Shown one piece after another: positions 7,223 to 13,930 of a DNA stretch of 64,000 bases (positions are counted from its first letter, which is position 1; every line of letters begins with the position of its first letter). Made by a program: the position numbers and the translations under genes. Origin of the DNA: an uncultured Acidobacteriaceae bacterium (GTDB taxonomy: Bacteria; Acidobacteriota; Terriglobia; Terriglobales; Acidobacteriaceae); contig CAIVDV010000047.1 of the NCBI GenBank assembly GCA_903904755.1, positions 1-64,000 of the forward strand. The letters run 5' to 3'. The notes below the pieces were generated by a model. That model saw only the letters and a program-made list of their open reading frames with translations. It searched no databases and was not told the DNA's origin.

Positions 7223-10093
7223 TTATTTGACCTGCAGACGGATCAGGGAGTTGGTCAAAAGGTCATTGATCCAGACGTAGTGGCCGCCGTCGAAGGTGGC
7301 GTTGTAGGGGTAACCGGCGGACTCATTGATGGTGTTGAGGACGACGCCGGCGACGGGGTCAACCTGTGCGATGTAGCCGTTGGCGGTGGTGACCCAGAGG
7401 AAGGTTCCGTCGAAGGCCATGGACTTGAACTGGGTTCCGAGCGGGTTGGCCACCGTTGCGGTGATGGTGCCGCTGGCCACGTTGTAGCGGTAGAGGTTGG
7501 CGACAACATCCCACCAGATATTGGTGCCGTCAAAGCCGAGGCCATGAATGGCGCCTGCGGTGATCGGAATGTTCTGCACGGCGGTGCCGGTAACCGGGTT
7601 GAACTGCGTCACATAGTTGCCGTTGATAAACCAGAGAGAGCTTCCGTCAAAGATGATATTTCCGAGCGGCGCGGCGAAGCTGACACCGGCTGGGGTGACG
7701 TTGTAGGTGGCGATGCGCAGCCCGGAGGCCGTGTATTGTTCCAGCGTTTCGTTGCTTTCCGCCACCCACATATGCTGACCGTCGGAGGCGAAGTAGAAGG
7801 GCTGGTTGGTGGCGGGAGCGACTGTGTTGACCAGGCCGCTCATGGGGTCCAGGAGAAAGATGGAGTAGGTGCCAGAGACCGAACTGCCGACCCACAGGTT
7901 GCCGCCCATGTACCCGATTCCAGTGGGGCTGGCGACGGAAGAGAAGGTGGCGGTGGCAGCGCCGGTAGCGGGGTTGACCTTGACGACGGAACCGGGTGTG
8001 CTGGTGGACGGGCCGATGTAGACCGAGCCCTCAGAGACGTAGAGCGATGTGCCGTCAGAGACGATTCCATTCACATTGGCAAAGCCCGGGTAGGCTGTGG
8101 GTGCGATGGGCGCGCAGGTGACGGTGATGGCATTTGCGCTGGAGGTGGTGACGGTGCCGGATCCATTGGTGATGGTGCAGACCTGTGCCAATGGCTGGGT
8201 GGCAACCGTGACCGCGTAAGAGGAGCTGTACGGCTCGGGGCCGAAGGTGAAGGCACCGTTGGCAGAGATGCTGAGGGTGGCCGTACCGTTGAGGGCGAGA
8301 ACGAGAGTGCCGCCGGTAAGGCCGCTGAGGGTGCCGCCGAGAGGCTGGGACGGGACCGAGCAGCCCAGGCTGAGCAATGTGGTTGTGGTTGCGGTGGACG
8401 AGATGGCGTTGCAAATGGAGGCCAGCGTGACCGTGGCAACTCCGGATGGACCCTGCGGGCCGACGGGGCCCTGAGGACCAGCGGGGCCCTGGGGCCCGAC
8501 AGCTCCTGCGACCCCGGCAGCCGCGAAGAGGCTCCAGAGGCCGTTCTGGTCAGGGCTTGGCTGACCAGCAGGCACGGCGCTAAGGGCGACATAGCTGGAG
8601 CCGTTGTAGTACGCGACATCGTAGGGGTTATAGGTGTTGGCGGCAGACCAGGCCTGCTTGAAGGCGAAGCCGGTGCCGGCCGGGCCCTGGGGACCGATGG
8701 CGCCGTCATTGCCGGAGGGCCCGATTGGGCCAATCGGGCCGGTATCACCCTTGGGACCCTGGATGCCGGGAGTGCCCTGAGGGCCGGTGGCGCCAGTCAG
8801 GCCGGTGAGACCCTGTGGGCCTGTGTCCCCCTTCGGTCCCTGTGGGCCAATGGGGCCTTGCGGTCCGGTCTCGCCTGTGGCGCCGGTCAGGCCTTGCGGG
8901 CCGATTGGACCGGCGGATCCAGTTGCGCCAGCGGGGCCCGCGGGCCCCTGTGTGCCGGCGGCGGCAAAGAGCAGCCACTGGGCGGTGTTTTGGTCAGGGG
9001 AAGGCTGACCGGCAGGAATTGCTGTGAGTGCAACGTAGCTGGAACCGTTGAAGGTGGCAACGTCGTTCGGGTTATAGGCAGAGGCAGCAGACCAGAGCTG
9101 CTGGTATTGGAAGCCGGACCCTGCCGTGCCCTGGGGACCAGTGGCACCGGCAGGACCCTGCGGGCCAATGGGGCCGATAGGGCCGATAGGACCCTGCGCT
9201 CCAGTTGCTCCAGTGGGTCCTGTGGGACCAATAGGGCCTTGGGGACCGGTTAATCCCTGCGGACCGGTATCGCCCTTTGGCCCCTGCGGGCCGGTTGCTC
9301 CAGTCAAGCCAGTTGCACCAGTCAAACCTGTCGGACCGACAGGCCCTTGCGGCCCGGTGAGTCCTTGCGCTCCGGTGTCACCTTTGGGCCCTTGCGGGCC
9401 AGCGGGGCCGGTTGCACCAACGGGCCCCTGTGGGCCAGTTGCGCCGGTTGGACCCTGAGGGCCGCCGGGGCCAACCGGGCCTGCCGGACCCTGCGGACCG
9501 ACGGTGCCGGTGCCGCCGCCAGCCACGGTCAGCAGCAGTTGCGGCTGGTGGCTGGTGAAAATGCTCTCTTTGCTGTCGAAGCCGAAAGCGCCGGTCGAGC
9601 CGACAAGCGCGATGGCCAGTCCGTTGTTGGCCAGGGTACCGGAAAGCCACTGATTGACAACAGCGGTGACGTCAAAGCTGACGAACTGGTTGAGCGAGTT
9701 CGGCGTGAGCTTCAGGGAGTGGCTGCCTGTGGCGCTGCCGCCGGGGACGGGGGCGTTCTGGCTGGTCAGGCCCTGCTCGGTCCAGGGGGCGTTAAGCTGG
9801 TAAACATCGATGTTGCCGGTGCCGATGGCGGCGTCAACGAAGAGAACCAGCGTGGCCTTGGTGACAGTGCTGCCGGCAGGGACCGAGGAGATGTCGAACT
9901 TCACATAGCCGGTGGAGGCGCTATCGACGGCAATGAGTGCGGCGGCGCCATAGTTCTGCTGCGGGGTGAGCTTATAGGCAAAAGTATCCGCTGTGGGCGG
10001 AGCCTGGCCCAACAAGGCGGGAGAAGAAATTCCCAGGGAAAGAAGTGCAACACAAACGGCACTCCGCACAAGGCGCAATCCAGACAGACGCAT
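7223..10093 (-). CDS. Secreted collagen-like protein with carbohydrate-binding-type modules and a beta-propeller
   Basis: 956 residues from the ATG at 10093, which has GGAGG 9 nt upstream. Order of parts: a signal peptide (residues 1-30, ending SSPALLGQA); a CBM96/DNRLRE-like jelly-roll region (about 33-190) with [15 protein letters not shown]; a Gly-X-Y collagen tract (about 195-325); a 50-residue module with [17 protein letters not shown]; a second collagen tract (about 378-478); a second copy of the module ([17 protein letters not shown]); a short third tract; a Ser/Thr-rich linker; and a C-terminal propeller (about 668-956) with repeated FDG, NGN and W motifs. The 50-residue modules resemble small chitin-binding domains, which I infer from the GDV-NG-YVA-W pattern. 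It is probably an extracellular adhesin or matrix protein. No anchor is visible at the C-terminus. Confidence 0.8.
8660..9510. repeat. Collagen-coding DNA repeats, two main tracts
   Basis: Degenerate 9-nt units of the type GGxCCxxxx recur across about 9120-9507 and about 8660-8957, with a short third tract near 8440-8500. They encode Gly-Pro-X triplets of the collagen-like protein. The two long tracts are split by the coding DNA of one carbohydrate-binding-type module. Such repeats can change length by slippage or recombination. Confidence 0.8.
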
Positions 10094-10443
10094 CACGGGC
10101 CTCCACAATACGTTGAACTCAAGGCAGTCTGTGCTTCTCTGCGGGCAAGTGCTGGCCAGGCATACCTGCTCAGCCAGTGTCCGGGGGAAGACACAAACAG
10201 GAAATCCGCTGCGGGGGTATTCGCGCGGCAACCGATTGGAAAACAGATACTGTTGGCATGAATATTCGTCCAGGAGCAAACCCAGGGAGTTGATCCTGTG
10301 GGTCGGGAAGAGCTCGGTGGCGAACCTCAAGCCTACCCAGCATATAACGCATGCGGGTGTGCGGCAACAGGGATTATGGTTGGGATTTTGATGCGGCGGG
10401 GCGATGTGTGGGCTAGGATGCGTTGCAGAAAATTGAGCGAGGG
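10094..10443. other. Gene-free 350 bp upstream of the collagen-like gene
   Basis: This stretch separates the start of the collagen-like gene from the end of the small membrane protein gene, both on the minus strand. The frame of the collagen-like gene stays open across most of it, but the encoded residues look random and lack a signal peptide, so I treat it as untranslated. A weak -10-like TATATG lies on the minus strand at 10341-10346. I found no riboswitch or terminator that I recognise. Confidence 0.5.
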
Positions 10444-10680: not shown

Positions 10681-11820
10681 CTAAACGGCGACGACAAAGC
10701 TGTCTTCGGTGCGGGTAACGGCGTGGTACAGGGTGTCACGCTCAACCGGGACGCGGCCAGCCTCGGTGATGAGGCGGCAGAGTTGCTTGCGGGTCATGCC
10801 CTGTGGCGTGGTGGCGCCGGCGTCGTGGTAGATTTTCTCTTCGATGACTGTACCGTCGAGGTCGTCCGCGCCGAAGCGCAGGGCGATCTGGGCGATTTTG
10901 GGGGTGAGCATCTGCCAGTATGCTTTGACGTGCGCGAAGTTATCCAGCAGCAGGCGGCCGACGGCGACCTGGCGCAGGTCGGTGAGTCCGGTGGTGACGG
11001 GCAGGTGGTCGAGCGGGGTGTTTTCCGGATGGAAGGCGAGCGGGATGAAGGTCTGGAAGCCGCCGGTGTCGTCCTGCACGTCGCGCAGTTTGAGGATGTG
11101 GTCGACGCGGTCGGCGTCATTCTCAATGTGCCCGTAAAGCATCGTAGCGTTGGAGCGGAAGCCCATTTTGTGGGCGAGGCGGGCGGTGTCGAGCCACTCT
11201 GTGCCGTCGATTTTGTGGTCGCAGATGAAGCTGCGGACGCGTGAGGAGAAGATCTCCGCGCCGCCTCCAGGCATGGAATCAACGCCGGCCTCGCGCATCT
11301 GGCGCAGGGTTTCTTGAATGCTGATTTTGGCGCGCCGGGCGAGGAAGGAGACCTCAACCATGGTGAAGGCCTTGATGTGCACCTTTGGGAAGCGCTGCTT
11401 GAGGCCGCGGACCAGGTCGAGGAAGTATTCGAATGGGAGGTCGGGGTGCAAACCACCGACGATATGGAACTCGGTGACCGCTTCGGAGTATCCCGAGGCG
11501 GCGGTCTCCCACGCCTCTTCCAGAGCCATGGTGTAGCCGTTGGGGTCGCCCTTTTTGCGGCCAAAGGCGCAGAGGCGGCAGTTGGCAACGCAGACGTTGG
11601 TGGGGTTGATGTGGCGATTCACGTTGAAGTAGGTGGTGTCGCCGTGCATGCGCTCGCGCACGAAATTGGCCAGCCAGCCGACGGCGAGAAAGTCCCCGGT
11701 GCGATAGAGGGCGAGGCCGTCGTCAAAGCTGAGACGCTCGCCTGCAAGCACCTTTTCTGCAATGGGCGTGAGGCGGGGGTCATTGGTGTGAAAGGGGCGG
11801 CGCTCGGAGGTCGTCTGCAT
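10681..11820 (-). CDS. mqnE: Aminodeoxyfutalosine synthase (radical SAM)
   Basis: 379 residues. MqnE is a radical SAM enzyme that joins 3-[(1-carboxyvinyl)oxy]benzoate to SAM-derived adenosyl radical, giving aminofutalosine in the futalosine route to menaquinone. The iron-sulfur motif [12 protein letters not shown] is the C-x3-C-x2-C form typical of this enzyme group. Further signatures are [49 protein letters not shown] and [11 protein letters not shown], all of which favour MqnE over MqnC. I chose the ATG at 11820; no clear ribosome binding site precedes it. An MqnD-like gene lies at 28088-28951, far from this one, while mqnA, mqnB and mqnC are not in the window. Confidence 0.88.
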
Positions 11821-11899
11821 ATCTTTGATGATACCGGATATGCGGAAGGCGGGAACAGCGCTGGCCACGGAGTGGTTTTGGCGGGATGGATGCCAAATG

Positions 11900-13876
11900 C
11901 TACTGCTCGAGGAGAACGCCGTCCTGGAGGGATGCGGCGACGTGCTTTGAGCCCGAGCCGGCGGCTGCGTAGAGACGGTAGCCGACCACGAGTTGGGTAT
12001 AGCCGAGGGTGGCGGGATCGACGGCGAAGATGACATTGGTGGCGCGGGAGGTGACCAGCATGCGGCCGGTTGCCGGGTTCCAGGTCATGTGGTCGACATA
12101 GCGGGCGGGCACGCGGTCCAGCCAGAACCAGCTTTCGCCCTTGTCGCGGGAGAAGTAGATGCCGTCGCCTGCGCCGATCCAGAGTGCGCCGTCAGGGGAT
12201 GTGGCAAGGGCGTGGATATCCTTGATGCGCTGGGGTATCCGCATGGCCGACCAGGTCAGGCCCTTGTCTGTGGACTGAACCAGATTCTCAGTTCGCGCGG
12301 CGAGGATATGGCCATCGAGGACGAGAACGGAGTGGTATTGCGATGAGCCGAGAACAAGGCCACCCTGCCAGGTCGCGCCCTTGTCAAGGCTGACCAGGAT
12401 GCCTTCTTCGGTGGAGGCGATCCAGGTGTCTGTGGAGAGGTCCAGGCCGTAGACGTGACCGCCCATTTCGCGGGCCGGGAGGGTGTAATCCTGTTCGCGA
12501 TTGACGCGCTTGCCGCCAACTTCCGTTGCGATGACCTTGCGGCCGTGGTTGACGATGGAAGAGCGCAGCACCCAGTGGGGCTCGGGGCCGGAGCGGTCAA
12601 GCTGGAAGATGCCGTGGCTGCTGCCGGCGAGGACAGTGCCGTCGGAAGCCGAGGCGAGAGTGAAGATATCGCGCCCATCGAGGCCGTCCTCAATCTGGTT
12701 CCAGGAGTTGCCGAAGTCATCCGTTTCGAAGACGCCGCCGAAGGTTTTGTCGTTGACGACACCGGCGAAGAGGTGGCCGGGCCGGCGCGGGTCAGAGAGC
12801 AGTGCCTGGACTTTGCGTGCGGAAAAGCCCTGGTTGGTGCCGTGGAAGGATTTGCCGTTGTCGTCACTGGCCAGAACACCGCCGCGGTCTGTGGCGACGA
12901 GGATGCGGCCCTGTGCGTTGGCATCGAGGGCGATGTCATTGACGATGACTTCAGGGCCGGTAAGGGGCTCCCAATTACGGCCAGAATCGTGGGTGCGGTA
13001 GAGGCCCTCGGTGGTTCCGGCGTAGACGACTTCGCGGTGGTTGGGGTCCTGCATCAGGACGCGGGTACGGCGGGCAGTGGCGGGAATTCCCTGCACTTTC
13101 TTGAAGAGTTCGCCGGCGTTTTCACTTTTGTAGATGCCGGAGCAGGCGCTGGCATAGACGGTAGCCGGGCGCTCGGGGTCAATGATGATGGAGAAGACGT
13201 CGGAGTCGTCGATGACGCCCTGCTTGATGTTGCGCCAGTGCAGGCCGCCGTCGGTGGTCTTCCAGGGCAGGTGCCAGGTGCCCGCGTAGATGATCTGCGG
13301 GTTGCGTGGGTCGATTGCGAGGGACTCGACCTCATGAATTTCGCGGCTGAGGGGGTTGTCTTTGGGCGGGCTGATGCGGGCCCAGGTGCGGCCATGGTCG
13401 CCGCTGCGGAAGACGCCGTCGAGGCTGCCGACGAGGAGGATATCCGGATTGGAAGGCGCCTGGGCGAGCGACCGAATGGACTGGCCAAGCATGGCCGGGA
13501 TGGATGCCCAGGTGCGGCCGCGGTCGTGGCTGACGTAAAGGCCGCCGTCTGGTCGGTCGACACGCCAGACGCCGGCGAAGAGGGTTTCGGGATCAGAGGC
13601 ATCGACGATGAGGCTGTCAACGATGAGGTCTTCAGAGCCATCGACGCGGCCAACGCGCTGCCATTTGCTGCCCCCGTCGAGGGTCTCAAAGACCCAGTTG
13701 TTTGTGTCGCCGAGGAAGAGGTGGCCGGGCTGGCCGGGAACGGGCGCGAAAGAGCGGGCGTCGCCGCCCCAGGGGCCGATGGCGGGCCAGTTGCCCGATT
13801 GCGCATCAACTGACGCAGCGGCAAGAAGGAATATGAGAGCGAGCAAACCGGGGAAGCGGCGAATTGAGGGCATCAT
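11900..13876 (-). CDS. Secreted Asp-box (BNR/sortilin-like) beta-propeller protein
   Basis: 658 residues from ATG 13876. A signal peptide (residues 1-25, ending AAASVDAQ) shows export. The rest is made of repeated Asp boxes of the form S-x-D-x-G-x-x-W: TLDGGSKW, SHDRGRTW, SGDHGRTW, TTDGGLHW, THDSGRNW, SDDNGKSF, TDDFGNSW, SLDKGATW, STDKGLTW and SRDKGESW can be read, enough for a double propeller. This architecture occurs in sortilin/Vps10-like and Ycf48-like proteins and in carbohydrate-active secreted proteins. No catalytic residues of sialidases are obvious. It lies 79 bp upstream of mqnE on the same strand but the link is probably incidental. The ribosome binding site GGAG is 14 nt away, so the ATG at 13873 is an alternative. 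Confidence 0.82.
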   Translation of the reverse strand: MMPSIRRFPGLLALIFLLAAASVDAQSGNWPAIGPWGGDARSFAPVPGQPGHLFLGDTNNWVFETLDGGSKWQRVGRVDGSEDLIVDSLIVDASDPETLFAGVWRVDRPDGGLYVSHDRGRTWASIPAMLGQSIRSLAQAPSNPDILLVGSLDGVFRSGDHGRTWARISPPKDNPLSREIHEVESLAIDPRNPQIIYAGTWHLPWKTTDGGLHWRNIKQGVIDDSDVFSIIIDPERPATVYASACSGIYKSENAGELFKKVQGIPATARRTRVLMQDPNHREVVYAGTTEGLYRTHDSGRNWEPLTGPEVIVNDIALDANAQGRILVATDRGGVLASDDNGKSFHGTNQGFSARKVQALLSDPRRPGHLFAGVVNDKTFGGVFETDDFGNSWNQIEDGLDGRDIFTLASASDGTVLAGSSHGIFQLDRSGPEPHWVLRSSIVNHGRKVIATEVGGKRVNREQDYTLPAREMGGHVYGLDLSTDTWIASTEEGILVSLDKGATWQGGLVLGSSQYHSVLVLDGHILAARTENLVQSTDKGLTWSAMRIPQRIKDIHALATSPDGALWIGAGDGIYFSRDKGESWFWLDRVPARYVDHMTWNPATGRMLVTSRATNVIFAVDPATLGYTQLVVGYRLYAAAGSGSKHVAASLQDGVLLEQ

Positions 13877-13930
13877 GACGTACAAATCATCTCCGCGCCC
13901 GAGGGTGAACCGGAACGCTGGCAAAGGAAA

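Follow-up and report, generated by a model that had tools for sequence, protein, structure and literature searches.

A candidate collagen-like rod with tail-fibre-type modules and an exchangeable head in the Acidobacteriaceae

In a 64,000-nucleotide stretch from an uncultured Acidobacteriaceae bacterium (GenBank assembly GCA_903904755.1, contig CAIVDV010000047.1, positions 1 to 64,000; the window), one gene encodes a protein in which collagen-like Gly-X-Y tracts alternate with modules of about 50 residues, between an N-terminal CBM96/DNRLRE domain and a C-terminal propeller (Table 1). We consider it probable that this is a secreted, trimeric, collagen-like rod with a shaft of the type found in phage tail fibres, the modules acting mainly as joints and the head being exchangeable. 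The family of such rods is concentrated in the Acidobacteriaceae, as judged from genome sequences, and would add to the known bacterial collagen-like proteins a new variant whose shaft is of the tail-fibre type. We found no description of this architecture in the open-access literature.

The first-pass annotation of this DNA had the gene coordinates right, a 956-residue frame from the ATG at 10093 to the stop at 7223-7225, and the parts that it named were borne out, although it missed a four-cysteine domain between the third tract and the propeller. Its CBM96/DNRLRE-like N-terminal domain is matched over residues 32-189 by the Pfam CBM96 family PF24517 (3.8e-22, 79.3 bits against a cut-off of 26) and by the NCBIfam DNRLRE family NF033679 (3.7e-28, 98.7 bits against 34), and the family profile of the domain matches PDB entry 8wab at 3.7e-12; the CBM96 profile is found in all 27 CBM96 rows that we aligned (E ≤ 0.001). 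The three tracts are perfect over 44, 31 and 9 triplets, with the modules between them, just as the annotation had them alternate. Pfam Collagen (PF01391) matches the protein at 1e-33, and the longest run with glycine in every third place is 45, whereas in 2000 shuffles of the residues it never exceeded 7. Proline is the commonest X residue, and tracts 1 and 2 carry KGD (Lys-Gly-Asp), a motif that stabilises the collagen helix. The collagen helix rises 0.286 nm per residue, and at that rise the tracts, if helical, would measure about 38, 27 and 8 nm. Two stretches of the whole protein match Pfam CBM_5_12 (PF02839; 28.1 bits against a cut-off of 26.2). Two modules are thus present as had been said, but "near-identical" was too strong, their identity being 72%. 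At the DNA level the module regions are likewise 72% identical over 209 nucleotides, 444 nucleotides apart, so that their duplication is probably not recent; no further copies of these modules were found elsewhere in this genome.

The C-terminal propeller also holds. Residues 665-956 contain seven repeats of the FDG-x-x-LWV type, which align with those of four relatives. Pfam names no propeller on the window sequence by itself; a profile built from the five proteins finds 1l0q, a YVTN propeller (1.9e-31), as well as virginiamycin B lyase (5.6e-12). Foldseek returned propellers, with 1l0q third, for a moderate single-sequence model of the tail, in which the predicted local distance difference test score (pLDDT) is 54.5 overall and about 42 to about 81 in the propeller blocks. 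The domain that precedes the propeller, residues 554-664, holds four cysteines (561, 578, 639 and 660), which are all those outside the signal region. Many relatives of this domain, with conserved cysteines and often in tandem, occur in the bacterial family, and it is also seen at G095:C7:301169-302935 (genome, contig and positions in our set).

Table 1. Features of the collagen-like gene and its protein in the window
Feature	Positions	Strand	Remarks
Whole gene	7223..10093	minus	956 amino acids plus stop; ATG at 10093, stop 7223-7225
CBM96/DNRLRE beta-sandwich domain, residues 32-189	9527..10000	minus	PF24517, NF033679, PDB 8wab with family profile
Collagen tract 1, residues 193-324	9122..9517	minus	44 perfect Gly-X-Y triplets, two KGD
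Module 1, CBM5/12 fold, residues 329-377	8963..9109	minus	Pfam match; AlphaFold2 pLDDT 95.7
Collagen tract 2, residues 380-472	8678..8956	minus	31 perfect triplets, two KGD
Module 2, residues 477-524	8522..8665	minus	second PF02839 stretch
Collagen tract 3, residues 527-553	8435..8515	minus	9 perfect triplets
Cys domain, residues 554-664	8102..8434	minus	without Pfam match; relatives often tandem
Seven-repeat beta-propeller, residues 665-956	7226..8101	minus	repeats, profile, Foldseek
Signal-peptide-like start, residues 1-31 (end approximate)	10001..10093	minus	basic then hydrophobic stretch, by eye
GGAGG, likely ribosome-binding site	10100..10104	minus	6 nucleotides upstream of the ATG

Consistent with a rod that has modules spaced along it, the architecture recurs in many genomes. 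Of 200 relatives, 82 have some match to the window protein, a count for which a match confined to collagen, the Cys domain or the propeller is enough. Named genomes were scanned with a 13-row CBM96 alignment, which was built from collagen proteins so that the scan favours such proteins; it gave 90 relatives, the best 80 of which were kept. Among these 80 loci, 77 are titled as Acidobacteria of some rank or genus (Granulicella, Edaphobacter, Terriglobus, Bryocella and Acidipila, for example), 2 as Rhodanobacteraceae and 1 as Verrucomicrobia. The family members on the contigs titled Rhodanobacteraceae and Verrucomicrobia (L167, L168 and L180) may reflect misbinning or transfer between phyla. The loci hold 81 CBM96-led frames, with tracts in 80 and modules (counted at a domain E < 1e-4) in 65; the one frame without a tract, in L132, runs into masked bases. 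Proteins with only one domain type, which would have spoken against the proposed architecture, are not the rule, since 65 of the 81 have all three types and 15 have CBM96 and collagen only. Modules number 0 to 14 per protein (14 in L141 and L165), and triplets reach 325 (L158). Among the 67 frames that no contig end truncates, tracts and modules occur together in 55; alternation is strict in 34 of these, and the other 21 show doubled modules (14) and/or doubled tracts (8).

Across the phylum, the CBM96 profile matches 44 of 396 genomes at E ≤ 1e-10. Of these, 29, our own included, lie in the family of the window, many genomes of which have no match. The strongest match outside the family (G445, 7.5e-40) exceeds that in our own genome (1.2e-28); second among the 15 outside genomes comes one at 1.6e-24, and their full range is 7.5e-40 to 3.8e-11. 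In the two outside loci that we read, one (L242) encodes CBM96, 41 triplets and a propeller with no module, and the other (L244) is without a tract. A set of 37 collagen proteins, picked from the matches and not evenly sampled, has modules in 22, CBM96 in 27 and both in 17.

The exact plan of the window protein is rarer than its parts. When the window-type tail was sought in 300 genomes of the bacterial family, matches were found somewhere in 80, the best outside its own genome covering 391 of 403 residues at 37% identity in G299. The protein there (L099, 873 amino acids) runs CBM96, tract, two modules, tract, module, tract, Cys domain and propeller, and this is the one other genome among those searched in which the same architecture ends in Cys domain and propeller. 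A module-free order of CBM96, collagen and propeller is seen in L062 (same bacterial family) and in the L242 protein, from another family of the phylum; collagen and propeller follow a different N terminus in L100 and L056. The L056 protein (L056:3730-7098, 1123 amino acids) has a start that looks TIG-like by eye, then collagen, a fibre module that about 120 inserted residues interrupt, Kelch-like repeats (again by eye), more collagen and the propeller. By single linkage, 53 of 65 tails fall in one cluster, and that of the window clusters with L099 only. These clusters and the differing C-terminal parts suggest a shared stalk on which heads are exchanged. The sequence ends in C-N or C-Q in 48 of the 67 family proteins uncut at the 3′ end.

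Length varies as well. Seven rods that we chose from the 80 named loci for their shared locus with matching flanks (L123, L137, L142, L143, L150, L155 and L157) differ in repeat number, the comparison that had been proposed for strains, their modules numbering 6 to 8 and their triplets 78 to 124. For the window gene itself, no positional orthologue was found by way of the seven neighbour proteins that we searched for in the loci. Beyond its own UvrC, that search gave two distant CofH/MqnC-type matches (32-34%) and, for the OmpA-like neighbour, one match in L115 (46% over 496 residues). In 30 relatives' UvrC loci (own included), examined with flanks of at most 1.5 kb and in one case almost none, a CBM96 or tail match was found in the own locus only. 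In G001, extra partial uvrC matches with stops lie at C15:280685-281385, about 1.3 kb past the intact gene, and are perhaps a decayed duplicate.

What are the modules? The annotation had called them chitin-binding-like and had envisioned sugar-binding sites along the rod. Profile and fold agree with the first of these: PF02839 is matched by 44 of 48 family modules (at E ≤ 0.1, an E-value threshold and not the Pfam cut-off), and module 1 alone passes the Pfam cut-off narrowly (26.8 against 26.2 bits). However, the tail-fibre matches are about equally good. The PHROG family phrog_5073, named "tail fiber protein," matches 46 of the 48 modules (E ≤ 0.001), and module 1 scores 30.6 bits with phrog_9851 and 26.7 bits with phrog_5073, the Pfam and PHROG scores coming from libraries of different size. 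An AlphaFold2 model of the module, made with 93 rows, reached the pLDDT given in Table 1. Foldseek placed phage fibre or baseplate chains (9rkv, 8fqc, 8kec) at ranks 1 to 5 and a chitinase at rank 6; VIA-align gave the tail fibre 8kec_a as best (Z 8.1, root-mean-square deviation 1.3, 50 aligned), followed by the chitin deacetylase 4nz4 (Z 7.7) and chitinase domains (up to 7.7), with 1ed7 at 5.3.

The residues that would contact chitin tell a different story. According to PMC8449059, conservation of the exposed pair of aromatics is nearly complete in CBM5, where the core consists of a Tyr and a Trp; a title cited there links W687 and Q679 of ChiA1 to chitin binding. We looked at 320 family modules (319 unique) from 71 proteins. 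Columns are numbered by what we take to be the ChiA1 residues, with the CBM5 aromatic pair placed by eye on columns 679-680. The core is kept: Y662 in 320 of 320, an aromatic at W656 in 320 of 320 and at Y675 in 316 of 316, and W696 in 312 of 312. At the chitin positions Q679, P680 and W687, by contrast, an aromatic is found in 1/316, 0/316 and 0/17 modules, the W687 column being a gap in 303 of 320. Family modules also carry an extra aromatic-x-G strand (aromatic in 298/298, Gly in 290/308). The 73 unique modules of viral contigs and of the phage protein gp29 (see below) show the same picture, with aromatics at 679, 680 and 687 in 1/72, 0/72 and 1/14, and the strand aromatic in 65/65 with Gly in 61/67. 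Thus, the fold part of the chitin-binding-like assignment stood, the known chitin-binding surface aromatics were missing in nearly all modules, and the notion of sugar-binding sites spaced along the rod is not supported.

A related question arises for the N-terminal domain. The founding CBM96 binds alginate through basic residues, as stated in PMC9971899. No Lys or Arg lies in the putative alginate loop in 19 of 27 CBM96 rows, the window protein included; six of the remaining rows have one, one has two and one has three. We placed the loop ourselves, by an approximate mapping to 7VBO in which 7VBO itself was not aligned, and the count leaves out the residue directly before the conserved Phe, which is basic in some rows, including the window (Lys).

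The shaft has a counterpart in a phage of the same bacterial family. Protein gp29 of Tunturiibacter phage Tunturi_5 (XOB77472.1, 1469 amino acids), annotated as a tail fiber protein, has 13 modules interleaved with tracts, of which 8 reach 4 triplets or more; its modules show best identities of 38-59% to bacterial ones, the 59% over 27 residues only. "Collagen" and "tail fiber" are absent from the main text of the Tunturi_5 paper (PMC11924767). Using the module alignment we fetched 29 viral contigs and again counted tracts at 4 or more triplets. Module and collagen share a frame in 19 of the 29, and in 15 a frame has at least two of each; four of these 15 (L258, L259, L261 and L262) agree in the length and order of their frames and could represent a single virus. 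Going by the PHROG names, these viral frames would be tail fibres. CBM96 was found in none of the module-bearing frames of the 29 contigs, and a CBM96 scan of viral contigs gave one weak match, without collagen. Separately, the window's own genome encodes a second collagen-like protein, at G000:C19:65471-66376 (L055:10472-11377), with 36 triplets and, after them, a Phage Tail Collar domain (PF07484, 5.2e-13), a phage-fibre-type head.

How, then, might the rod work? In the reading that we favour, three chains would wind into a triple helix in each tract and the modules, as we suppose for phage tail fibres, would mainly form compact joints holding the three chains together between tracts, with sugar binding at most a secondary role. 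Partners would be held by the N-terminal domain and the head, so that the rod would bridge or scaffold the cell surface and the extracellular matrix. Its length would vary via gain and loss of tract-module units. One can go a step further, tentatively and with somewhat less than even confidence, and envision an Acidobacteriaceae kit of secreted collagen rods, with a shaft exchanged with or taken from phage tail fibres and with swapped heads. Each rod would start with a CBM96-type domain, continue as a (collagen-module)n shaft of variable length, and carry at its C terminus either a common head (jelly-roll-like by eye only) or a propeller. In this view, a phage of the same bacterial family builds its tail fibre from the same shaft parts.

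Several observations weigh against the trimeric rod with modules as joints. Its trimeric state, export and location are reasoned here from sequence. No trimerisation domain was identified in the window protein, and no cell-wall or membrane anchor was recognised in it by eye, no dedicated search having been made. The protein is probably exported, given the signal-like start judged by eye; across the family, a crude rule (a hydrophobic stretch behind a Met plus a basic residue) is satisfied in 58 of 81 proteins, not in all. As many as 16 of the 81 have no module. For the module, Foldseek gives weak E-values (0.021 at best, none ≤ 0.001), little separates its matches to tail fibres from those to chitin enzymes (Z 8.1 versus 7.7), and by the tool's own note a VIA Z near 8 may mean only a common arrangement. 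The chitin-site test depends on aligning a variable loop, and an aromatic lies beside the core Trp in 74 of 312 modules, so the modules may bind chitin by another face, or bind other sugars. Finally, the Cys domain is unfolded in the single-sequence tail model (pLDDT about 30).

Other explanations account for parts of these data. In the first place one might expect a rod of working chitin- or glycan-binding modules, directed for example at fungal walls or insect debris in soil, with the trimer multiplying the sites. The modules do lie narrowly above the PF02839 cut-off, their fold resembles chitinase and chitin-deacetylase domains, and the N-terminal domain is CBM96 by profile; yet the near absence of aromatics at the chitin positions in the 320 modules, the lack of Lys or Arg in most of the alginate loops (by approximate mapping, and with the residue before Phe uncounted), and the comparable tail-fibre matches make us regard this as unlikely, and a surface or matrix rod is more likely than a chitin binder. 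It is also conceivable that the Gly-X-Y tracts are flexible or disordered spacers in a monomeric string of beads, as would suit a protein in which no trimerisation domain was identified; our results are sequence and model based. A spacer would not need Gly in every third place over such perfect tracts, however, and both the prevalence of Pro at X and the KGD motifs speak for a helix, as does the trimeric state of a phage collagen-like protein (PMC3368898), so we hold spacers to be improbable.

That leaves the phage connection itself. The alternating shaft resembles gp29 and the viral contigs, and the modules match PHROG tail fibre families, so the gene could be a prophage remnant, with the tail fibre of a phage or of a contractile-injection system having stayed behind in the chromosome. 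We give this very little credence. The window protein has a signal-peptide-like start and a CBM96 domain, the latter absent from the viral module frames, the viral scan having yielded only its one weak, collagen-less match; family members share a chromosomal locus in seven other genomes; and none of the seven window neighbours scanned, among them UvrC, a CofH/MqnC-type protein and a Sortilin/BNR protein, is phage-like. On the last of these grounds a prophage origin of the window copy was set aside. Among the same neighbours, the CofH/MqnC-type (10681-12036) and Sortilin/BNR (11900-13924) frames overlap as listed, probably because one listed start lies too far upstream.

Returning to the trimeric rod, how does it compare with known systems? 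The N-terminal domain has profile likeness over its whole length to CBM96/DNRLRE domains (TM6-N4 of Dp0100; 8wab), while the basic alginate loop is apparently not conserved in the family. With CBM5/12 domains (ChiA1, 1ed7) the modules have the fold and core aromatics in common but not the known chitin-binding aromatics, and the 1ed7 stretch lacks the [FYW]-x-G strand that precedes the core in family modules. A Pfam "carbohydrate-binding module" label on such proteins need not mean chitin binding. Tunturi_5 gp29 shares Gly-X-Y tracts alternating with the same kind of 50-residue module; it is a phage protein, however, with doubled and tripled modules and other ends. The propeller resembles, by profile, that of an archaeal surface-layer protein (1l0q) and virginiamycin B lyase, whereas the window propeller caps a collagen rod.

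EPclA, a collagen-like protein from an E. coli O157:H7 prophage, is the nearest experimental model that we found, likened by description and not by sequence. In PMC3368898, EPclA forms a triple helix, is trimeric by ultracentrifugation and light scattering, and has a dumbbell shape in micrographs; EPclB is presumed trimeric by its authors. Both have collagen tracts with globular ends, as in the window protein, and EPclB also has a globular part between two tracts. They differ in having phage-fibre N and C domains and a coiled coil, where the window protein has CBM96, CBM5/12-fold modules and a propeller. Scl1/Scl2 (SclA/SclB) and Lcl have a collagen region and presumed rod in common with the window protein; membership in their NCBIfam families was rejected by score against cut-off (SclB 142/325, Lcl 130.8/500, SclA 105.7/400 bits), and the best stretches fall in tract 1. 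PclA of Streptococcus pneumoniae, an LPXTG surface protein according to a review (PMC8968730), is likened here without sequence comparison.

In that review, prokaryotic collagen-like proteins have an N-terminal domain, a collagen region, in some cases with interruptions, and a C-terminal domain. Set against this plan, the present family is built from a repeated unit of collagen and bead, with up to 14 beads and a unit number that varies at one locus; its head also changes, and its shaft has parts in common with a phage from the same family of bacteria. It offers a natural series for asking how beads affect the register and stability of the triple helix, and a place for testing whether phages and bacterial surface proteins exchange parts of their fibres.

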